Source of the DNA: an uncultured Bacteroidales bacterium
Lineage (GTDB): Bacteria; Bacteroidota; Bacteroidia; Bacteroidales; UBA932
Length of the DNA: 64,000 nucleotides
Direction of reading: 5' to 3'
Assembly (NCBI GenBank): GCA_947630665.1
Contig: CANRID010000001.1
Coordinates: 62,001 to 126,000, forward strand
The position numbers were made by a program, and so were the translations under genes. Each line of letters begins with the position of its first letter. The first letter of the stretch is position 1. The notes beneath the pieces are model-generated. The model had not been told where the DNA came from. It did no database searches and saw only the letters and a list, made by a program, of their open reading frames with translations. This document shows positions 5,055 to 23,990 of this stretch, in pieces.

Positions 5055-5900
5055 TTATTTCTCTTGAGGCTGTAAAGGTCCATAGAAGTACGCAGCTGTA
5101 GCGCCGCCATCGATAAGGAAATCCGCACCTGTGATGAATGCTCCTTGCGGTCGCATAAGCAGTTCGGCAACATTTGCAACTTCATCTGCTGTGCCGGGAC
5201 GTCCTGCCGGACATTTTGCAAACATGTTTTTATAAAAATCACCTCGTGGCCCGTTAAATTCATCGATTGCAAGTGGCGTAACTATTATTCCCGGAGATAT
5301 GGAGTTAAGTCGCGCACCGCGTTCACCCCACTTCACTGCCTCCGCCATTACACGCTTCACGTTGCAACGCTTCGCTATCTGATAGGCATGTAGTGTGTTT
5401 CCTATATTCTCCGGCTGAAGCATGGGAAGTGACAGCAGTTCATCGGTAGGGGTCATGGCAAGAAGCCTATCCTGTTCAGGAGTGAGAGCAGCCATCCGAT
5501 GTCCAGACTGGCTTGAGATTGTTACACCTGTTCCACCCTCGGCTATGACTTTGCCTACTTCCTCAAGTAGTACGGCAGTACCGTAAAGGTCGACTTTAAG
5601 GATAGCTTCAATGGGTGCCTGAGAAGGGGAAACTCCGGCTGCGTTGACAAGCATAGTTATTTCTCCGTATTTCTGTGCCTCGACAAGAATATTCTTGATA
5701 GATTCACGGCTCGACAGATCCATCTCATGCGCAACCGTATCAAATCCCGCCTTGTTCAGTATGTCTGAGATGTTTTTGGCGTTCTCAATGTTCTTGTCGC
5801 CGATAACGATCTTCATGCCATATCCCATTCTCCGGGCTATCGCCATTCCTATCTGACCGGCTCCGGCCAATATCATTACGTCTTTCTTCATATTCATCAT
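5055..5900 (-). CDS. SDR-family NAD(P)-dependent oxidoreductase
   Basis: 281 aa from the ATG at 5900; ATGs at 5897 and 5891 are equally possible, and the longest ORF begins at a TTG. Rossmann motif GAGQIGMA near residue 13, catalytic Ser in TISSQSGH, and the catalytic YxxxK (YQIAK) around residue 170. The C-terminal NGPRGDFYKN...FLIDGGATAA is the usual SDR end. It starts 52 nt after the flavodoxin stop with no separate promoter seen, so it is the second gene of that operon under AraC control. Substrate unknown. Confidence 0.85.
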   Translation of the reverse strand: MMNMKKDVMILAGAGQIGMAIARRMGYGMKIVIGDKNIENAKNISDILNKAGFDTVAHEMDLSSRESIKNILVEAQKYGEITMLVNAAGVSPSQAPIEAILKVDLYGTAVLLEEVGKVIAEGGTGVTISSQSGHRMAALTPEQDRLLAMTPTDELLSLPMLQPENIGNTLHAYQIAKRCNVKRVMAEAVKWGERGARLNSISPGIIVTPLAIDEFNGPRGDFYKNMFAKCPAGRPGTADEVANVAELLMRPQGAFITGADFLIDGGATAAYFYGPLQPQEK

Positions 5901-5952
5901 ATTAATTTTCAAAATATATGATACCTACGTAAAAGATTATTAGGGCTGAATT

Positions 5953-6606
5953 TTATTTATCCTTTTTCATACCGAGACCTTCAAGCCATTTTTCAACACT
6001 TTTCTTAGCCGAAGCCTGATTCTCCTGAGCCACTTTCCCCTGAATGGCAAGTCCTTTGCCTGTCAGAGTATTTGCCCCCTTACATTCGGCAGCGATTTTA
6101 CGGTCGGTCCCGCCCATGCCGCTTCCTTCGTGCGTAACGAATGGAATCACGGTCTTTCCATTCCAGTCGTGCTTCTCGATGAAGGTATATACGCACATCG
6201 GCGGTTCACCCCACCACTGGGGATAGCCGATAAAGATAACATCGTAGTCCTCGATTTTTACGTCCCCCTTGACAGCCGGACGTGCGTTCGCCTGCAATTC
6301 TTTCTTCGCAATCTCGATGCATTCATTGTAGCTCTTGGGATAACCCTTCTCAGGAACAATCTCAAAAATGTCGGCACCGGTTGCATCGGCTATCATGTCG
6401 GCAACGATATGGGTGTTTCCTTTTTCAATGTAACCTACATTGTAATTCTCACCTGTGTGCGAGAAAAATACTACTAATTTCTTTCCGTCCATATTCATTG
6501 TTTTTTCTTCCGTTTTAATTCCTTCTTCCGAAGTATTTGAAGCGTACGCAGTATTGCACAATACTGGAATAAGCGCTGAAAATATTAATGCAAGAATCTT
6601 CTTCAT
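5953..6606 (-). CDS. Exported flavodoxin
   Basis: 217 aa. Signal peptide MKKILALIFSALIPVLCNTAYA, followed by a flavodoxin fold with the FMN phosphate loop VVFFSHTGENYNVG and the aromatic segment GYPQWWGEPPMCVYTF. Family knowledge: a flavin electron carrier or NAD(P)H-dependent reductase; the signal peptide places it outside the cytoplasm, which is uncommon for classical flavodoxins but frequent in Bacteroidota. First gene of the operon with the SDR. Its promoter (6634-6641) carries the AraC operator at the same 51-nt spacing as the SnoaL-like gene. Confidence 0.87.
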   Translation of the reverse strand: MKKILALIFSALIPVLCNTAYASNTSEEGIKTEEKTMNMDGKKLVVFFSHTGENYNVGYIEKGNTHIVADMIADATGADIFEIVPEKGYPKSYNECIEIAKKELQANARPAVKGDVKIEDYDVIFIGYPQWWGEPPMCVYTFIEKHDWNGKTVIPFVTHEGSGMGGTDRKIAAECKGANTLTGKGLAIQGKVAQENQASAKKSVEKWLEGLGMKKDK

Positions 6607-14358: not shown

Positions 14359-14390
14359 TTTGAAAAACAAGTTGAATAGCTATATTTTTG
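14359..14390 (+). promoter_or_regulatory. Promoter of the methyltransferase-helicase-nuclease operon
   Basis: TTTG (14359-14362), 20-nt spacer, TATTTTTG (14383-14390). Predicted start near 14397, giving a leader of about 80 nt that contains the XRE-tail reading frame. Confidence 0.55.
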
Positions 14391-14407: not shown

Positions 14408-14473
14408 GTGAGAATTGCTAAACTTTTGAATATAGATCCACGCCAACTGATTAATGGTGGTAATATTGATTGA
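14408..14473 (+). pseudogene. C-terminal tail of an XRE/HTH regulator (remnant or leader ORF)
   Basis: A short frame starting at a GTG reads VRIAKLLNIDPRQLINGGNI and stops 2 nt before the methyltransferase ATG. IAKLLNIDPRQLI is the standard last helix of XRE-type HTH regulators. The frame is open upstream only to about 14372, where no HTH is encoded. Either the front of a regulator gene was deleted, or this is now a translated leader. Short, so only moderately certain. Confidence 0.5.
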
Positions 14474-14475
14474 TT

Positions 14476-17220
14476 ATGGCGAAGAAACTTAAATCATTTT
14501 CTCATGTTCAGGCAACTGAGGCATTGGAGCAACTCGGCCAGCGTGGTGCGTCCGCATCGGAATTTGTCTATGATCTTCTGCGGATCTTTGCCAATTGGGG
14601 CGACGGACAGGTAAGGCGCACCAAAGAAGGTGCGGGGAACTCGGCAAAGGATGGCGAAACTGTCCTTGTCAAGAATCTTATCGCATATCGTCCTGCAGTA
14701 GTCAATACTATTGATGACGATTGTTCGGCTATGTATGACATTATCGAGGCTATGCGAGCCGATGCCAAGATTACCAAGCACTCGCCTCGCCTTTATGTTA
14801 CAAGCAACGGCAGCCACGTTGTTGCCTATGACCCGAAAGAGAATGATTCTTACGAGAATCGCATCGAACATTTGTGGAAAGATTTTGAGTTTTTCACACC
14901 GCTTGCCGGTATAGAAAAAATTCAATATGCAGAGGAAGCCGAAGCTGATGTGAAATCAGCCGAACTTATGGCCAAACTTTTCGATGATATCCGGCGATAT
15001 AACAATGTAAGCAATCCCGATACGGTTCATGCGCTCAATGTATTCATGTCGCGTCTGCTGTTCTGCTTCTTCGCCGAAGATACCGGCCTTTTCCCCGGGC
15101 AGAACCTTTTTACCAACACGTTGGCCAATCACACCAAAGCGGACGGTTCCGATCTCGCAGAGTTTATTGACAAGGCATTTCTTGCCATGTCAACAAATGA
15201 TCCTGCCGTACTGGCAACATTACCGAGTCCATACGACAGATTTCCATACGTCAATGGAGGCTTGTTCAAAGAACGTTTCCCGATTCCGACTCTTTCGCGT
15301 CGCGCCCGCACATTGATACTGAACTGTGGAGAATATGCTTGGAAGGATATCAACCCGGATATCTTCGGCTCGATGATTCAGGCGGTCGTTACTCCTGAAC
15401 AACGTGCCGGCCTTGGCATACATTATACCTCCGTGCCTAATATCGAGAAAGTGATACGGCCTCTATTCTTCGATTCGCTTATCGAGGAATACACCGCCGC
15501 CTGTGAGGAAGCAAAGGAGAAACTGGCGAAGAAGATGCACCCCGACCGCGCAGCTCAAAGACTGCGCAATCTTCTTAGCCGGTTAGCCAACATCAAATTT
15601 TTCGACCCGGCTTGCGGCAGCGGAAATTTTCTTATCATTACCTACAAGCGGCTGCGTGAATTGGAGATAAAGATATGGCAGGCACTTCGCGACATTGCCA
15701 ATATCTCGGTGCTGCCCATAAGCAACGTATCGCTTACTCAATTCTATGGCATAGAATTGGACGAATACGCCTGCGACACTGCTACGCTGTCTCTATGGCT
15801 CGCCGAGCATCAGATGAACGTTAAGTTTGGGGAGGCTTTGGGTGTACAGCCCGATACGCTTCCTCTCAAATCCTCCGGTCATATCGTTTGCGGCAATGCC
15901 TGTCGCCTCGACTGGAATACCGTCTGCCCCCATACGTCCGAAGAGGAAGTCTATATTATGGGCAATCCGCCGTATCTTGGAAGCTCGATGCAAGATGCTG
16001 AACAGAAAAAGGACTTAGAAATAGTCTGCGGTCATTTTCCAAGTTATAAGAATCTTGATTATATAGCATCTTGGTTTTGTAAAGGCGCGAATTACATTAG
16101 TGGTTGTAATGCTAAATGTGCGTTTGTGTCCACCAATTCAATCTGCCAAGGGGATAGCGTTTCCCTATTGTGGCCAAATATCTTTGCAAAGAACGTTGAA
16201 ATTGATTTTGCGTATCAATCCTTTAAATGGAGTAATAATGCAAAATCAAAAGCTGCCGTCATTGTTGTTATTATCGGATTAGCCAACGTGTCTAAATCAA
16301 AGAAACTGCTTGTGAACGGAAGATCATCCATAAAGTGTGAACATATAAATGGATATCTCCTTACTGCGCCTGAAATTGTTATCGAACGTAGAAAGAAGCC
16401 TATATCTGACTTACCTAAGATGGTGTTCGGAAACAAGCCAACAGATGGGGGCAATTTAATACTTACTCCTAAAGAGCGAGATAAAATTCTCGATGAATAT
16501 CCAGGAAGCAAAAAATTCATACGATTTTATCAGGGTTCAGACAGTTTCATCAATGGAGAAACCCGATATTGTATTTGGATTGGTGAAGCCGAACGAGAAG
16601 AAGCAGAAAAAATACCGCCAATTAAGTATAGAATAGATGCCGTCGCTGTTTTTCGGAGCAAAAGTGTGGCAGCATCCACAGTCGAAGCCGCAGAATACCC
16701 TCATTTATTTAGGCAACGGGCGCATCGAGATGGTCTAGCTCTTTTAGTTCCTAGGGTTTCATCAGAAAGACGACAATATATTCCGATTGGATTTGTCGAT
16801 TCAAACACTATTGCATCAGATTCCCTCCAAGTTGTTTATGGCACAACATTGTTTACATTTGCAGTATTAGCAAATCGCATGCATACGATTTGGTTATCGG
16901 CTATTGGTGGAAAGCTTAAAAATGATTATAGATACTCCAATTTGGTTTATGATTCTTTTCCATTCCCGAAATTGACGACTGTCGAAAAAGAGGAATTGGA
17001 GCGTCTTGCTCAAAATGTTCTCAATATCCGCGACGAACATTTCGACATGACACTTGGCGAGATGTATAATCCCGAAACCATGCCCGACGAGCTGCTCGAA
17101 GCCCATCATCAACTCGACCTCGCCGTAGAGCGCATTTACCGCCCCGAGCCGTTCACCTCCGACGAAGAACGTCTCGAACATCTTTTTAAACTTTACGCTA
17201 AAATGACAAAAAATGAATAA
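14476..17220 (+). CDS. MmeI/DnmA-like adenine DNA methyltransferase
   Basis: 914 aa from the ATG at 14476 (MAKKLKSFSHVQATEAL). N-terminal MmeI-like region and helical spacer (VFMSRLLFCFFAEDTGLFP), then SAM motif I FFDPACGSGNFLI (residues 376 on), catalytic motif IV NPPY at 497-500 (gamma-class N6-adenine order), a target-recognition region at about 510-830, and a conserved C-terminus (MLPE-like TMPDELLEAHHQLDLAVER). I see no N-terminal PD-(D/E)xK nuclease, so it is a methyltransferase only, like B. subtilis YeeA/DnmA. The stop overlaps the next gene's start (ATGAATAA). The target-recognition part is visibly more AT-rich than the flanks. Confidence 0.85.
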   Translation: MAKKLKSFSHVQATEALEQLGQRGASASEFVYDLLRIFANWGDGQVRRTKEGAGNSAKDGETVLVKNLIAYRPAVVNTIDDDCSAMYDIIEAMRADAKITKHSPRLYVTSNGSHVVAYDPKENDSYENRIEHLWKDFEFFTPLAGIEKIQYAEEAEADVKSAELMAKLFDDIRRYNNVSNPDTVHALNVFMSRLLFCFFAEDTGLFPGQNLFTNTLANHTKADGSDLAEFIDKAFLAMSTNDPAVLATLPSPYDRFPYVNGGLFKERFPIPTLSRRARTLILNCGEYAWKDINPDIFGSMIQAVVTPEQRAGLGIHYTSVPNIEKVIRPLFFDSLIEEYTAACEEAKEKLAKKMHPDRAAQRLRNLLSRLANIKFFDPACGSGNFLIITYKRLRELEIKIWQALRDIANISVLPISNVSLTQFYGIELDEYACDTATLSLWLAEHQMNVKFGEALGVQPDTLPLKSSGHIVCGNACRLDWNTVCPHTSEEEVYIMGNPPYLGSSMQDAEQKKDLEIVCGHFPSYKNLDYIASWFCKGANYISGCNAKCAFVSTNSICQGDSVSLLWPNIFAKNVEIDFAYQSFKWSNNAKSKAAVIVVIIGLANVSKSKKLLVNGRSSIKCEHINGYLLTAPEIVIERRKKPISDLPKMVFGNKPTDGGNLILTPKERDKILDEYPGSKKFIRFYQGSDSFINGETRYCIWIGEAEREEAEKIPPIKYRIDAVAVFRSKSVAASTVEAAEYPHLFRQRAHRDGLALLVPRVSSERRQYIPIGFVDSNTIASDSLQVVYGTTLFTFAVLANRMHTIWLSAIGGKLKNDYRYSNLVYDSFPFPKLTTVEKEELERLAQNVLNIRDEHFDMTLGEMYNPETMPDELLEAHHQLDLAVERIYRPEPFTSDEERLEHLFKLYAKMTKNE

Positions 17221-17953
17221 TTTAGTAAAAGACTCTTTGACAGGAGGACTAACAGCCCTTGCAAGTACATCTGACAATCCAATAATCTCAGTAACTGTTG
17301 CGACTGGTGCGCCCATTATAGTTTCACTTACTACAGATTTTTTATCGAGGATTCTTAGTTCTTTGCAATCGTTAAGGTTGTTAAGAGGCTTACATTCTAT
17401 AGATAAGAAGATAAATAACAAACTGTTTCAAGGTAAAAAAGTACGTCATGATGGAGATATGTCCGTCGTTAATGGAAATCAAGCAAAACAAGTCCTTGAG
17501 GGAATCATACAAAATATCACCGACGAGTACGAAGAAAAGAAAATGGAAGTGCACACGAACTTTTTTACAAATCTTTGCTTTGATGAACGTATCGTATTTG
17601 AACAGGCGCTATATCTCACACGAGTTTTGAAGCAGTTAAGTTATCGGCAGCTTGTTCTCATTGCCATAAGCCATGATAAGCCATTGGAAGCTGGAGGTTG
17701 GCAATTTAAATTTAAAGATTCAGGAAACCAAAATTTGGAAAAATTTGCAGATCTATATAGTGAAATTCAGAATTTGGAACAAATGAGGATCATTGAAGAT
17801 TCTAATCGAGGAGTTACATTAGGGGGGTCATCTGCCCCATTAAGATTAAGTTTGTGGGGTAATATAATTTACGAAGAAGTTGGTCTTGCATCAATGCCCG
17901 AAGATGACAAACAGATAGTGCTACAAATGATTTCAAGTGTAAACAATGGATAA
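17213..17953 (+). CDS. Unrecognised protein between methyltransferase and helicase
   Basis: 246 aa, no family recognised. Residues about 20-50 (NPIISVTVATGAPIIVSLTT...) are hydrophobic and could be a membrane segment or hairpin. The rest is helical and charged (NITDEYEEKKMEVHTNFF, LTRVLKQLSYRQLVLIAI, FADLYSEIQNLEQMRIIE) and ends in a strand-rich part. Start and stop overlap both neighbours by 8 nt (ATGAATAA at 17213, ATGGATAA at 17946), so it is translationally coupled inside the operon. The gene is clearly more AT-rich than the helicase. It is absent from the B. subtilis yeeA-yeeB-yeeC arrangement as I know it. A membrane effector or sensor is one possibility (inference). Confidence 0.75.
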   Translation: MNNLVKDSLTGGLTALASTSDNPIISVTVATGAPIIVSLTTDFLSRILSSLQSLRLLRGLHSIDKKINNKLFQGKKVRHDGDMSVVNGNQAKQVLEGIIQNITDEYEEKKMEVHTNFFTNLCFDERIVFEQALYLTRVLKQLSYRQLVLIAISHDKPLEAGGWQFKFKDSGNQNLEKFADLYSEIQNLEQMRIIEDSNRGVTLGGSSAPLRLSLWGNIIYEEVGLASMPEDDKQIVLQMISSVNNG

Positions 17954-19919
17954 TCTTGTAAATGTTGAATATGCCCAAACGGGCAAGTCGAGCAATACCG
18001 ATGAACTCGGTATGCGCGAAATGCAGGCAATGGTTTATGCCCAGCGTCATCGTCAGCACCTGCTTGTAAAGGCCCCTCCGGCATCGGGCAAGAGCCGCGC
18101 CATGATGTTTGTGGCTCTTGACAAGCTTGCAAATCAAGGTATCAAAAAGGTAATTGTAGCCGTACCGCAGCAAAACATAGGGCGCAGCTTCAACAACACT
18201 TCACTTAAGAAATTCGGTTTCTTCGAGGATTGGAAAGTTACCCCGTATTGGAACCTTTGCATGGCTGCCGGTAGTGAAAATTCCAAGAAATCAAAACTAC
18301 GGGAGTTCTTAGACCATCCGTCAGCCAAGATCTTGATATGCACTCATGCCACCCTGCTTAACGCACTGAACGGAATCGAAGCAGAGAAACTCAACGGTGT
18401 GTTCTTTGGTATCGACGAATTTCATCATGGTTCAGCGGAAGAGAGCAACCGGCTCGGATCATTCATTCGCAGGCTGCTGAATGAGACATCAGCACATATT
18501 CTTGCAATGACGGGTTCATACTTCCGCGGCGATGCCGTGCCGGTGATGCGTCCCGAGGATGAGGCGTTATTTCAGCCAGCCATAAATTATAATTATTATC
18601 AGCAACTGAATGGCTACCGTTGGCTAAAAAGTCTTGGCATCGGGTATAGCTTCTTTCAAGGAAATTACCTCACGGCTATTCCAGATGTGCTGGATACGAC
18701 AAAGAAGACGCTTATCCATATTCCGCACCCCAACAGCAAGACCGGAGCGTTTATGGACAAGTACGACCAGGTTGCCGAAATCATCAAGTGCATCGGAGAA
18801 ATTGAATCGTGCGATTATGACAATTATATCTATAAAGTCAGAACGAACGACGGTCGCTTGTTGATAGTAGGCAATCTTGTGGAAGACAACACGGAACGCA
18901 GAAGCGCATTGCAAAATTATCTGCGAAGAATGAATCGCCGCGATTCAATGGATATTCTTATCGCGCTCGGCACTGCCAAAGAGGGCTTCGATTGGGAATG
19001 GTGTGAGCATTGTATCACTATCGGTATCCGTGCCTCGCTTACGGAGGTGGTGCAAATCATCGGCCGTTGCACCCGCGACTGTGAGGGAAAGACCCATGCT
19101 CAGTTCACAAACCTTATACCGTGTCCCGATGCCACACAAGACGATGTTTCAATGGGTGTAAATGATTTTCTGAAAGCTATTGCGGCCTCGCTGCTGATGG
19201 AACAGGTTATGGCACCTAAATGGAACTTCAAGACCAAACTGGATGATGAAAAAAAGCCGGGCAAGACAACTACGCCGGAGGAAGATCACGTTATTGAGGT
19301 GAAAGGTCTGCCTGCCCTGAATGATAAAACCAGGGCTATTGTTGAGAACGATCTCGACACTCTTGTTGCAACCACACTCTCTGATAAGAATATCCGGGAA
19401 GCCATCATTGGTGAAGGCATGACAGAAATGATTACCGAGGTTTATATCCCGAAAATCATTCGCGATACTTATCCAGACCTGAACGAGGAAGAAGTCGATG
19501 CCGTTGCAAAGCATACAATCCTGACTATCGCCACACAGGGCGAGCAGATTGTAGGGCCAGATGATTCCGGCAATAGATTCATTAAGATTGCCAACAAATT
19601 TGTCAATCTTGATGACCTTGATATCAATCTTATAGCTGAAATCAATCCTTTCCAGAGAGCCTACGAAGTAGTTTCCAAATCGCTGACTCCCGAAGTGCTG
19701 CGTACCATTCAGTATGTTATAGAGGATAAGCGTTCAGAAAAACTTACTGATGAGGAAGCAATTTTGCTTTTTACAAAATACCTCCCCAAGTGGCGTGAGG
19801 AAAACCCGGGTAAAATTAAGCCGGAGATTACCGATGGCGATCCGTTGGCTCGCCGCATTGCTCTCGCTATTGAACATCTTCGTCAATTGAAACGCAATAA
19901 ACTCGCACAGCAACAATGA
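17946..19919 (+). CDS. DEAD/DEAH-box helicase (YeeB-like)
   Basis: 657 aa superfamily 2 helicase. Walker A APPASGKSR (residues 43-51), DEFH box at 157-160 (FFGIDEFHH), motif III MTGSYF, and motif VI QIIGRCTRD (about 370-378). The C-terminal third is helical without a recognised nuclease. Together with the methyltransferase upstream and the GIY-YIG protein downstream it matches the YeeA-YeeB-YeeC gene order. Probable role: ATP-dependent DNA translocation coupled to sensing of unmethylated DNA (inference). Its stop overlaps the next start as ATGA. Confidence 0.85.
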   Translation: MDNLVNVEYAQTGKSSNTDELGMREMQAMVYAQRHRQHLLVKAPPASGKSRAMMFVALDKLANQGIKKVIVAVPQQNIGRSFNNTSLKKFGFFEDWKVTPYWNLCMAAGSENSKKSKLREFLDHPSAKILICTHATLLNALNGIEAEKLNGVFFGIDEFHHGSAEESNRLGSFIRRLLNETSAHILAMTGSYFRGDAVPVMRPEDEALFQPAINYNYYQQLNGYRWLKSLGIGYSFFQGNYLTAIPDVLDTTKKTLIHIPHPNSKTGAFMDKYDQVAEIIKCIGEIESCDYDNYIYKVRTNDGRLLIVGNLVEDNTERRSALQNYLRRMNRRDSMDILIALGTAKEGFDWEWCEHCITIGIRASLTEVVQIIGRCTRDCEGKTHAQFTNLIPCPDATQDDVSMGVNDFLKAIAASLLMEQVMAPKWNFKTKLDDEKKPGKTTTPEEDHVIEVKGLPALNDKTRAIVENDLDTLVATTLSDKNIREAIIGEGMTEMITEVYIPKIIRDTYPDLNEEEVDAVAKHTILTIATQGEQIVGPDDSGNRFIKIANKFVNLDDLDINLIAEINPFQRAYEVVSKSLTPEVLRTIQYVIEDKRSEKLTDEEAILLFTKYLPKWREENPGKIKPEITDGDPLARRIALAIEHLRQLKRNKLAQQQ

Positions 19920-21112
19920 TCAACTGGGACAAGGAACTCGAACGAATATTTGAAGATCCGCTGTTTGCGGATGTTACCGCCCCACAGAAGCGGATAACAT
20001 CAAGCGACCGCCTTATCGCAGGCTTTCAGGAGATATTGGCTTTTTATGAAACCAATGGCCGCCTTCCGGAAGATAATCCGGCTGAAACATCGCTTTATCA
20101 TAAATGGGTCGGACTGCTGAAAAGCGAGAAGAAAGTAGAGCGTTGCCGTCCGTTTGATACCTGTGGTATCCTCCCTCAACCTGTTCAGACTGTCGAAGAA
20201 CCACAGCCTGAATATCAGCCCGAGCCTACCAAGAAAGAACAACTTGAAGCAATTTTCGATGATCCTCTGCTTGCTGATATTTGGGATACTACCAACCTCG
20301 GAGGATTATTTGATATCCCCGATTATATGCGAGAGCGCCTTAATGCCCGCAAAGAAGCCGAATATGTGGGGAAACGAGTGCCTTGTGAAGATTTTGACAG
20401 ATATGAAAACAACTTCAAAGAGATCCATCAGGGATTGAAATCTGGAAAATATCGTCTTATCAAGTTCAGTGTAAAGAATCTGAAAGTAGGGAGTTATTTC
20501 ATTGAAGATGGCATGATAGGTTATCTTGCAGCCTTTGATGATGAAGGACTAAATAAATACGGAGACCGTGACGGGCGCACTCGGGTAATCTATGAGAATG
20601 GCACTGAGTCGGATATCAAATATAAGACGATAACTAAGAATCTGTCCGTAACGGGTTATTCAGTAGTAGATTGTACGGAGATTACAGATGAAGAATTGCA
20701 GCAATATTTCACAATCAGCGACAACGATATCGAGAGTGGAATTATCTATGTATTGCGTTCAAAATCTGTCAGACCGGAAATAAAGGCTATCAAAGACCTG
20801 TATAAGATAGGATTTACCGTTACCTCGGTAGAAAGTCGTATTGCAAATGCGAAGAACGAACCGACATACCTATGTGCCGATGTTGAAGTTGTTGCCACAT
20901 GGAAAGTATATAATGTCAAATCCTCAACATTCGAGGCTCTTATCCATAAACTTTTTGCAGACGTGCAATTACAGGTAACTGTAGATGGTCATCGCCCCAA
21001 AGAATGGTTCGTGGTGCCATTCAATGTAATCAAAGAAGCCATAACCGCAATTGTTGCAGGCAAATCCATTGAATATAACCCGCAACTTCAACAAATTATC
21101 TATCTTGAATGA
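19916..21112 (+). CDS. GIY-YIG (T5orf172/MUG113-type) nuclease
   Basis: 398 aa. The first 140 residues contain two copies of a short motif (EDPLFADVTAP, DDPLLADIWDT) that could be binding modules for a partner. The C-terminal half is a GIY-YIG nuclease of the T5orf172 type: IIYVLRS at 276-282, KIGFT at 297-301, SRIANAKNEPTYL, then FEALIHKLFADVQL with the catalytic Glu region. Last gene of the four-gene operon (4-nt overlap with the helicase), probably the DNA-cutting subunit of the system. Confidence 0.83.
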   Translation: MINWDKELERIFEDPLFADVTAPQKRITSSDRLIAGFQEILAFYETNGRLPEDNPAETSLYHKWVGLLKSEKKVERCRPFDTCGILPQPVQTVEEPQPEYQPEPTKKEQLEAIFDDPLLADIWDTTNLGGLFDIPDYMRERLNARKEAEYVGKRVPCEDFDRYENNFKEIHQGLKSGKYRLIKFSVKNLKVGSYFIEDGMIGYLAAFDDEGLNKYGDRDGRTRVIYENGTESDIKYKTITKNLSVTGYSVVDCTEITDEELQQYFTISDNDIESGIIYVLRSKSVRPEIKAIKDLYKIGFTVTSVESRIANAKNEPTYLCADVEVVATWKVYNVKSSTFEALIHKLFADVQLQVTVDGHRPKEWFVVPFNVIKEAITAIVAGKSIEYNPQLQQIIYLE

Positions 21113-21181: not shown

Positions 21182-21531
21182 ATGACTATTGACGACATAC
21201 AAGGGCTGATATTCTCCGACGAATCACGGATGTCGGAACTGAAAAAGACAACAGGAGAGTGACGGTAAGCACTCGGCTTGCGCGAGGCAAGATTACGAAT
21301 CATAGCTTACAACGGGAGGAATGTCTTAAAGTGTCTTATAAGGCTTTGAGAGGGGGTTTCTACAAATCCACTAAGGGATTCAAACACTGTACCTATTTCA
21401 GAAAGGACTATTTCCTCCCCGCATTAAAAGATGGCGCAATCAAGCCATTATATCCCAATCTGCCCACCAATCATCCTAAAAAATACTGTCTTACGGAGCG
21501 GGCCAAGATGTGGAAAACAACAATAAAATAG
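21182..21531 (+). pseudogene. AlbA_2/Schlafen-type ATP-binding protein, both ends only
   Basis: From the ATG at 21182 the reading is MTIDDIQGLIFSDESRMSEL, then KKTTGE and a stop. This is the standard start of AlbA_2-domain ATP-binding proteins (ELKKTTGEL). Directly after, in another frame (21259-21531), comes the typical end of the same family: a winged-helix segment with GFKHCTYFRKDYFLPALKDG and KKYCLTERAK. The middle, several hundred residues in intact members, is deleted and the frame is broken. A decayed defence or regulatory gene. Confidence 0.65.
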
Positions 21532-21737: not shown

Positions 21738-21983
21738 ATGACAAATCAATTCGAGATATTATTTGGAGATAAGATAAAAAAACTGCGAGAGAGCCGCCGA
21801 TTACTGCAACGCCAAATGGCGATGTCATTGGGCATTGATGTGTCTATGTATAGCCGTATCGAGCGTGGAGAACGTCGGGCAAAGCGAGAACAAGTAATAA
21901 TTCTCTCTCAGATTCTTGATGTTGAAACCGAATACTTGTTGTGTCTATGGTTAGCCGACAGGAGAATCCGATTTGGCGGATAA
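21738..21983 (+). CDS. XRE-family controller protein of the R-M system
   Basis: 81 aa. A single HTH_3 domain covers nearly the whole protein (IKKLRESRRLLQRQMAMSLG, then DVSMYSRIERGERRAKREQV). Size, fold and position directly upstream of a methyltransferase and endonuclease match C proteins, which delay endonuclease expression. Likely autoregulated from a leaderless promoter. Confidence 0.8.
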   Translation: MTNQFEILFGDKIKKLRESRRLLQRQMAMSLGIDVSMYSRIERGERRAKREQVIILSQILDVETEYLLCLWLADRRIRFGG

Positions 21984-22025
21984 AACATTGCAAATGGTAA
22001 TAGAAACTCGTAATACGACAGGTTC

Positions 22026-23303
22026 ATGAAAACGATGCATAGATTGATACAGGGAGATAGTCGCAACTTGTCTCGTATAAAAGATAAATCCGTCCATCTT
22101 ATAATCACATCGCCTCCATATTGGCAATTGAAGGATTATGGGAACGACAGGCAAATAGGCTTTCATGACAGTTACGAAAATTATATAAACAATCTGAATG
22201 TAGTTTGGGCGGAATGTTTTCGAGTGCTGCATGACGGTTGTCGCTTATGCATAAATATCGGCGATCAGTTCGCCCGCTCGGTTTATTATGGCAGGTATAA
22301 GGTCATCCCTATCAGAACGGAAATAATACGCTTTTGCGAGATGCTCGGAATGGATTATATGGGGGCTATAATATGGCAAAAGCAAACTACGATGAATACG
22401 ACCGGCGGGGGCGCCGTCATGGGGAGTTTCCCCTATCCGCGTAACGGAATTCTGAAAATCGACTATGAATTTATACTTATCTTCAAGAAACAAGGTAAAG
22501 CCCCGATTCCGACAGTTGAACAGAAGAAACTTTCGGAGATGTCGAAAAAAGAATGGAATACCTATTTTTCATCGCATTGGAATTTCGGCGGAGCAAAACA
22601 GGATGGACACATCGCTGTATTTCCCGAAGAACTCCCACATCGTTTGATAAAGATGTTTTCTTTTGTCGGAGAGACTGTCTTCGATCCGTTTATGGGTAGC
22701 GGAACAACGGCATTGGCTGCTCGTAATCTGCAAAGAAATTCTGTCGGATATGAAATCAACCCTGACTTCAACCGGTATTATGAGGAGAAACTCTTTTCAT
22801 CATTATCGTTTAGTGAAGCTGAATATTCATTTGAGCAAGACGATTCGAAGTTCGAGATCAATGATAAAATGAGAGCTCTACCCTATATGTTCAACGACCC
22901 GCATAAGATGAACAGCAAGATAGATATCAAGCAGTTACAATTCGGTTCCAAAATAGATAAAAGCAGCAAGGATCGTGAGGAATATTTCTCGATAAAGACG
23001 ATTTTATCGCCCAATACCGCGATACTGAACAATGGCCTTACGATAAGACTTCTCGGCATCAAAGAAAAACCGTCAGTGAACGGAAATGCTACGAAGTTCT
23101 TGATGGAAAAAACGAGAGGTCGCAAAGTCTTTCTTCGATACGATTCGGTAAAATACGATGAACATAATATATTATTGTGTTACTTGTATTTAGATAATAA
23201 AACCTTTATCAATGCGCATATGTTGAAAAACGGATTAGTGGATGTGGACTACTCTTTCGATTTCAAATATAAAAACAAGTTTGAAAAATTGATAAACGTT
23301 TAA
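22026..23303 (+). CDS. Type II DNA methyltransferase (N4-cytosine type) with C-terminal SNase-like domain
   Basis: 425 aa. Catalytic motif IV TSPPYW at residues 28-33 and SAM motif I FDPFMGSG at 219-226: beta-class order. SPPY favours N4-cytosine over N6-adenine. Residues about 330-425 look like a staphylococcal-nuclease OB fold (LTIRLLGIKEKP, VFLRYD, LLCYLYLDNKTFINAHMLKNGLVDV), but the catalytic Arg of the family's DGR position is replaced (DEHN), so nuclease activity is doubtful. The endonuclease gene begins 3 nt downstream. Confidence 0.85.
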   Translation: MKTMHRLIQGDSRNLSRIKDKSVHLIITSPPYWQLKDYGNDRQIGFHDSYENYINNLNVVWAECFRVLHDGCRLCINIGDQFARSVYYGRYKVIPIRTEIIRFCEMLGMDYMGAIIWQKQTTMNTTGGGAVMGSFPYPRNGILKIDYEFILIFKKQGKAPIPTVEQKKLSEMSKKEWNTYFSSHWNFGGAKQDGHIAVFPEELPHRLIKMFSFVGETVFDPFMGSGTTALAARNLQRNSVGYEINPDFNRYYEEKLFSSLSFSEAEYSFEQDDSKFEINDKMRALPYMFNDPHKMNSKIDIKQLQFGSKIDKSSKDREEYFSIKTILSPNTAILNNGLTIRLLGIKEKPSVNGNATKFLMEKTRGRKVFLRYDSVKYDEHNILLCYLYLDNKTFINAHMLKNGLVDVDYSFDFKYKNKFEKLINV

Positions 23304-23306
23304 TAT

Positions 23307-23990
23307 ATGGAAAGATACTCGATGAACTTCGGCAAGAAAGAACGCGTACTGAACTACGCTTGCCAAACATACCAACTCTCTCGACCGAACAAGGTCGGTG
23401 CCGTTATGGCGCTTATTCGCGATTGCCAGCCGACATCATTTGAAGAGTGGAGGATATGGTATTTTGAGAATGCGCATACAGCTGGCAAGAATCCTACGAA
23501 AATTACTGTCGAGAGTCTGAAAGAGTTGGGTGAAAGATTGTATGTTAAAATTATGGAAGTCGTTATTCCCGAATGGGAAACAGCATTCAGAGAATTGACG
23601 GAACAGGATTGTATCGATTACATCTATAATCTGACTATCAATCGCACTTATGACGGATATCTGCGAGAGAAATCGGTTATCAATGATGGCTTGGCAAAAA
23701 TATTTCCCGACATAGTGTTCGAAGAAAGCGATCCGGAATTAGACCACGCCGGAGATATTGATTACATCGCAAAGGTTGGAGACAAATGTATCGGGATACA
23801 AATCAAACCAATAACGGCGAGTACCAATTTCGGCAGCTATTCGTTGACTGAACGAATGAAAGCGAGCTTCGCGTCGTTCAAAGGACAGTTTGGAGGCGAG
23901 GTATTCATTGTATTTAGTTTAGACGGCGAAATTGCCAACAAAGATGTCGTCGAACAAATACGCGAAGAAATAATGCGTCTATCCGAATAA
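23307..23990 (+). CDS. MjaI-family type II restriction endonuclease
   Basis: 227 aa; an ATG at 23322 is an alternative start. A PD-(D/E)xK-like active site is visible: DHAGDIDYI (Asp150/Asp152) followed by IGIQIKP (Gln165, Lys167). The overall pattern (SDPELDHAGDIDYIAKVG..., ASTNFGSYSLTERMKASF) matches what I know of the MjaI family, whose prototype cuts at CTAG. The specificity here is inferred only. It is the third gene of the controller-methyltransferase-endonuclease set. Confidence 0.75.
   Translation: MERYSMNFGKKERVLNYACQTYQLSRPNKVGAVMALIRDCQPTSFEEWRIWYFENAHTAGKNPTKITVESLKELGERLYVKIMEVVIPEWETAFRELTEQDCIDYIYNLTINRTYDGYLREKSVINDGLAKIFPDIVFEESDPELDHAGDIDYIAKVGDKCIGIQIKPITASTNFGSYSLTERMKASFASFKGQFGGEVFIVFSLDGEIANKDVVEQIREEIMRLSE

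Follow-up and report, generated by a model that had tools for sequence, protein, structure and literature searches.

An extra overlapping gene in a DnmA-YeeB-YeeC-type operon of an uncultured Bacteroidales bacterium, possibly encoding an interchangeable effector

The stretch analyzed here (the window) comprises 64,000 nucleotides (nt) of an uncultured Bacteroidales bacterium (contig CANRID010000001.1, assembly GCA_947630665.1). It carries a DnmA-YeeB-YeeC (YeeABC)-type restriction-modification (R-M) operon in which a gene for a protein of 246 amino acids (aa), hereafter X, lies between the methylase and helicase genes. The most probable explanation (roughly 0.55) is that X acts as a second-layer effector, interchangeable and probably abortive, and that the junction where it is embedded is a socket for exchangeable defence genes.

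Results

Organization of the operon

Four open reading frames (ORFs) of the + strand follow each other with overlaps of 8, 8 and 4 nt, the ORF coordinates confirming the values given in the original prediction made on this DNA:

14476..17220, + strand, MmeI/DnmA(YeeA)-type adenine methyltransferase; 916-aa ORF opening with TTG at 14470, ATG at 14476
17213..17953, + strand, X, 246 aa, embedded accessory gene overlapping each neighbour by 8 nt
17946..19919, + strand, YeeB-type superfamily-2 (SF2) helicase; DEAD/ResIII, with motifs PPASGKS, DEFH and QIIGRCTR
19916..21112, + strand, YeeC-type GIY-YIG/T5orf172 (MUG113) nuclease; MUG113/T5orf172 match

The succession of methylase, SF2 helicase and T5orf172/GIY-YIG nuclease on one strand is that of YeeABC. 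The usual layout places the helicase directly after the methylase; here the locus was classed as a YeeABC variant because X separates the two. Judged by its sequence, it is a DnmA-YeeB-YeeC-type operon with an extra, putatively coupled gene without family, and the family libraries agreed with the original prediction on this point; the predicted coupling of X on both sides also held, as far as the 8-nt overlaps are concerned.

Family libraries assigned MmeI methyltransferase, target recognition (TRD; residues 633-835 of the 916-aa ORF), helicase-spacer and C-terminal domains to the methylase, which aligned with the MmeI structure 5hr4 from residue 125 onward (E 2.2e-170). Its N-terminal part gave no MmeI match among solved structures. 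Homologous methylases were aligned from 27 of the 37 loci described below, partial or broken ones being excluded, L007 entering by its first piece and MmeI itself not being included. The NPPY motif of the window methylase was retained as NPPY/F in 27/27 homologues, no D..[DE]xK motif was common to the 27 sequences and no lysine within residues 1-180 reached 80% conservation. In the accessible text of PMC7261158, the DnmA group is described as lacking the MmeI PD-ExK nuclease motif.

Exchange of cargo between sister loci

Locus L014 was the sister of the window (98/96) in a 35-row helicase tree, within a clade of five rows, the other three members of which carry X. The two helicases were 92% identical. 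Identity per 50 nt amounted to 92, 98, 96 and 78% over the final 200 nt of the methylase gene, and to 82-98% over the initial 250 nt of the helicase gene. Between these flanks, X is present in the window and an unrelated DUF2971 gene in L014, where the methylase, helicase and nuclease ORFs are intact without X. No blastn match between both loci was obtained at methylase relative positions 1808-2483, which cover most of the TRD. Taken with the swapped slot gene, this gap makes both target specificity and cargo look exchangeable. A second swap was found within one genus, as L024 and the pair L025/L026 have closely similar helicases and unrelated cargo.

Two side observations concern this junction. 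DUF2971 genes also occur after the nuclease in L003 (8049-8864) and L007 (15837-16652), in addition to the slot of L014 (5710-6606), as though either site could receive this type of cargo. Moreover, the codons opening X (17213) and the helicase (17946) are alike, ATGAATAATTTAGTAAAA and ATGGATAATCTTGTAAAT, which is possibly the trace of an insertion by microhomology and possibly due to chance.

Occupancy of the methylase-helicase slot

Thirty-seven loci were read around the helicase gene, and the methylase-helicase junction was scorable in 34 (L020 and L057 had no methylase in the stretch, L027 a methylase fragment). Plasmids were represented by 18 of 261 helicase-bearing records, hand-picked for different hosts, two partial phage records being left out. 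The junction held one or several extra genes in 19/34 loci and none in 15. It was filled in 15 of the 16 loci from the phylum of the window, versus four of the 18 plasmids of other groups. As the window, L002 and L003 had been found via X itself, loci found by the helicase search were also counted separately (12/13 filled), and the difference with plasmids gave p = 1.7e-4 (Fisher test assuming independent loci, an assumption that is violated, since L024-L026 belong to one genus, as do L015-L017). The helicase-nuclease junction was closed in 35 of 37 loci, the exceptions being L022 (72-aa ORF) and L011 (an apparent split-off nuclease piece). With L011 taken as closed, filling of the two junctions (16/31 versus 1/31) differed with p = 2.6e-5, subject to the same non-independence. 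A gene-neighbourhood survey, as the original prediction had proposed, revealed a frequently filled slot; X itself occupied it in four close copies and other cargo elsewhere, as follows:

L015, L016: RhuM (L016 by identity to L015)
L021: RhuM (by identity to L015) and a Bro-N protein
L018: SduA (Shedu), a 179-aa protein and an AlbA_2/HATPase protein
L002: X, then an AlbA_2/HATPase protein
L022, L051: AlbA_2/HATPase proteins
L014: DUF2971 gene
L023: PD-T4-9_A, a SecB-like protein and an 81-aa protein
L053: ParDE
L055: RelB-YafQ, DarT and a macro-domain protein
L017: 216-aa protein with hydrophobic N-terminal stretches, no family above cut-off
L025/L026: 257-260 aa proteins, no family above cut-off
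L024: 282-aa protein, no family above cut-off, with a 42% homologue in L051 (plasmid, another phylum)
L054: 337-aa protein, no Pfam hit, presumably a phospholipase-D type nuclease by its motif

Slot genes of L024-L026 overlap their neighbours by 4 nt on both sides. Among filled loci without X, 10/15 hold at least one Pfam or PADLOC match read as toxin, defence or regulator. Known toxin and defence families in the slot (RhuM, SduA, PD-T4-9_A, ParE, YafQ and DarT with macro domain) support the proposed explanation, and RhuM has been put forward as a toxin in R-M neighbourhoods (accessible text of PMC3710099). These data suggest that the methylase-helicase junction is a socket for different toxin or anti-phage genes.

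Protein X and its wider family

X is a functional gene under purifying selection. The proportions of non-synonymous and synonymous differences (pN/pS) for the three pairs among the window, L002 and L003 were 0.206/0.728, 0.206/0.699 and 0.129/0.634, and L002, L003 and L007 have homologues in the corresponding slot, for which reasons X was considered a real gene. The corresponding rates were dN 0.142 and dS 1.40 between L002 and L003, and dN 0.241 with near-saturated dS between either and the window; dN/dS for X is about 0.1. Close homologues were found in L002 (Paramuribaculum, 66%), L003 (Muribaculaceae Isolate-037, 66%) and L006/L007 (genome G062, 36-37%); a family-level search recovered X in two of 299 genomes, that of the window and G062. 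The X proteins of L002 and L003 are 76% identical to each other, yet by helicase L003 is nearer the window.

The following feature was noted on X:

17234..17347, + strand, N-terminal hydrophobic stretch, approximately residues 8-45 of X (Kyte-Doolittle)

This stretch, part of the original prediction, is real. Against solved structures, X gave a sole match at E 0.086, taken as chance. It is probably helical according to a low-confidence model. Phage records and viral contigs yielded nothing usable for X, and neither distant X relatives nor Abi_alpha were found in viral contigs by a scan seeded with short peptide patterns, which may miss relatives.

More distant relatives (23-31% identity where measured) occur on Listeria seeligeri pLIS4, Shewanella baltica pS19501 and a Hymenobacter plasmid, and in genomes G445, G497 and G508; three weak matches (G378, G436 and G457, E 8e-4 to 9e-3) are omitted from this count. 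The predicted tie of X to such operons held for the close copies, of which 4/4, the window counted, lie between methylase and helicase, and failed for the distant ones, none of the six examined adjoining YeeABC genes. A HEPN-domain gene follows the X relative in pLIS4 and pS19501, that of pS19501 being also beside ABC-three-component genes. X was joined to five distant relatives with an hhalign probability of 99.7 (E 1.8e-25, 220 columns), and Gly-rich hydrophobic N-terminal stretches were present in four of the five aligned. X therefore belongs to a wider uncharacterized family with a hydrophobic N-terminus.

Profile comparison of this wider family with Abi_alpha gave a score of 32.9 over colinear blocks, versus maxima of 21.5 (n = 150) and 19.95 (n = 120) for column shuffles of the profile and 17.7 for the reversed profile. 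Three null runs of 150 were made, one of which, with a merged 9-sequence profile, contained an anomalous shuffle scoring 133 (1/150); 0/120 exceeded in a repeat. Pfam PF14337 (Abi_alpha, DUF4393) matched neither X nor the proteins P0002-P0005 above cut-off. Kinship of the X family with Abi-alpha is suggestive at this level of sequence comparison. As a separate observation, locus L028 (4857-6562) holds a distant X relative followed by a 243-aa gene (5831-6562) with a weak Abi_alpha match (E 0.015, below cut-off).

Neighbouring and related loci

A promoter-like site and two further features border the operon:

14359..14390, + strand, Bacteroidota-type promoter-like site (TTTG-N20-TANNTTTG), 85 nt upstream of the methylase ATG
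21259-21531, + strand, AlbA_2/HATPase-like gene remnant just past the nuclease
21738-23990, + strand, second R-M cassette directly downstream of the operon

The promoter assignment relies on what we take to be the Bacteroidota consensus; the pattern occurs seven times in the window versus 1.42 expected, and 0/7 matches fall within the operon. A longer homologue (503 aa) of the AlbA_2/HATPase-like remnant is located after the nuclease in L014 (69% over 52 aa). The second cassette consists of a helix-turn-helix control-protein-like gene, an N6/N4 methylase with a C-terminal SNase-like domain and an MjaI-type restriction enzyme. L020 (635-9080) displays YeeB-YeeC genes without MmeI methylase in the stretch, preceded by an AlbA_2 protein and by what we take, from their sequences, to be a SIR2-like protein and a HerA-like ATPase. 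The slot of L019 (1268-5604) is empty; its MmeI-like methylase matches only from residue 257 and is preceded by two overlapping genes, presumably for cytosine methylases.

Discussion

The DnmA-YeeB-YeeC loci of Bacillus subtilis and Vibrio crassostreae share their three core genes and gene order with the window, but they are described as three adjacent genes, whereas here a fourth stands between the first two (accessible text of PMC9973331 and PMC7261158). The former source mentions an 'Uncharacterized' family up- or downstream of dnmA as a possible further member in some bacteria. In the window, X is flanked by core genes of a different defence operon on the same strand, and related operons with other cargo (L014) or none (the 15 empty loci) exist. 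Comparable arrangements are known from other defence operons. PrrC is likewise an accessory effector nested in a restriction operon, the EcoprrI type Ic system, where it is kept inactive by the R-M enzyme and freed by a phage anti-restriction peptide; it is an ABC-ATPase/HEPN anticodon nuclease, whereas domains of this kind were not found in X (accessible text of PMC3710099, PMC3506569 and PMC12707154). TgvAB or DarTG2 in type I R-M operons, as well as Hma clusters and the notion of 'guilt-by-embedding', also represent one defence system placed inside another, as here, but the host operons are of the type I R-M or Hma kind instead of YeeABC, and X belongs to none of these families (accessible text of PMC11411939 and PMC12255303). 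As in the embedding of DarTG2, DarT and macro-domain genes occur in a YeeABC slot (L055). Embedding has been reported for BREX as well, in a source whose accessible text contains neither YeeB, MmeI nor DnmA (PMC12839542). YeeABC itself and embedding in type I R-M, BREX and Hma are thus already known, while no report of genes embedded in YeeABC was found in the literature searched, in which subscription papers and preprints were thinly covered; the cargo socket in YeeABC, and X without match in the libraries searched, appear to be new in this respect.

By analogy with these precedents, embedded genes may be either guards released on blocked restriction or systems of their own sharing a message. 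The explanation favoured here is that the methylase would mark self DNA and that helicase and nuclease, judging from their families, would attack unmarked DNA. X, whose translation is presumably coupled to theirs on a shared message, would form a second layer. It would most likely stop the infected cell after the first layer has been defeated, possibly through an action at the membrane. Abi-alpha (PF14337) of Enterococcus faecalis prophage 6, at 272 aa near X in size, leads to premature lysis of infected E. faecalis; its homologues are mostly on prophages (accessible text of PMC6356687), whereas X was not recovered from phage records or viral contigs.

Several observations weigh against this explanation. 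The wider family reached a reported probability of just 30 with Abi_alpha, and X alone a probability of 3 (P 0.015) with a score of 23.1, versus at most 22.0 in 150 column shuffles. No family was matched by X in Pfam, PADLOC, NCBIfam or PHROGs, nor, above cut-off in Pfam, by those of its relatives that were scanned. The AlphaFold check proposed in the original prediction brought no usable model from three sequences (mean predicted local distance difference test 41.8, predicted template modelling score 0.28). Anchoring in the membrane, also predicted, is possible but weak, the best 19-residue Kyte-Doolittle mean of 1.58 being borderline for a membrane span, of which such values are no proof. 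Close X homologues are few (four, all in the operon), so X looks rather stable within its own clade. Finally, the B. subtilis dnmA-yeeB-yeeC locus gave no phage protection, according to the accessible text of PMC9973331; the original statement that no clear restriction function is known was incomplete, as deleting the dnmA and yeeB homologues of V. crassostreae raised sensitivity to some phages (same source).

X can also be seen as an independent defence gene sharing the promoter, its embedding aiding spread and expression without functional link to methylase, helicase and nuclease. This is a real but rather doubtful alternative. The distant homologues living without YeeABC speak for it, and so do Shedu and DarTG, which occupy the slot and are self-contained systems elsewhere. 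The tight overlaps on both sides, found again in L024-L026, suggest tuned co-production instead. Precedents point both ways: TgvAB, embedded in a type I operon of V. cholerae, does not need the restriction activity of HsdR to protect against Tevenvirinae, yet tgvAB alone is 10- to 100-fold less protective against several phages than the whole cluster (accessible text of PMC11411939), and PrrC, a well-studied case, is functionally coupled (PMC3710099, PMC3506569, accessible text).

It is improbable that the system is a four-protein variant with X as obligate subunit, acting as anchor or sensor for helicase and nuclease. Coupling on both sides, strong purifying selection and the presence of X in four of the five members of its helicase clade would agree with such a role, but L014, the helicase sister of the window, keeps its three core ORFs intact without X, almost half of the scorable slots are empty and the distant homologues manage without YeeABC. 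The view of X as a fixed subunit was abandoned given L014. The working subunit of the original prediction survives as a functional gene, by selection and conservation, whereas its being a fixed component is not supported: DUF2971 replaces it in L014, and genes other than X fill the slot in 11 of the 16 loci scorable in the phylum. A regulator or antidote tuning the expression or activity of the three core proteins seems just as improbable. Regulators may be cargo, as AlbA_2/HATPase proteins are found in the slots of L002, L018, L022 and L051, that of L002 with weak C-terminal winged-helix matches just below cut-off; however, no DNA-binding domain was found in X by family library scans, its N-terminus is hydrophobic, and the HEPN and ABC-three-component neighbours of two distant relatives do not point to a regulator. 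The other genes found in the slot and the resemblance to Abi-alpha make an effector the likelier of the two.

A bolder extension of the effector hypothesis, tentative and on the whole unlikely, would make YeeABC a general guard socket, in which any plugged toxin or abortive effector (X, RhuM, Shedu, DarTG, ParDE, PD-T4-9) is restrained by methylase, helicase and nuclease until a phage blocks or evades restriction and thereby sets it free. X would then found a new membrane-acting effector family akin to Abi-alpha. Exchanging cargo in one background would make the guard idea testable. Reading the gene between an MmeI-like methylase and a YeeB helicase can serve as a search rule, which here yielded several proteins without Pfam family. 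Cargo as well as core might help to explain why YeeABC loci look inconsistent in the literature, protecting in V. crassostreae but not as the three-gene locus of B. subtilis.

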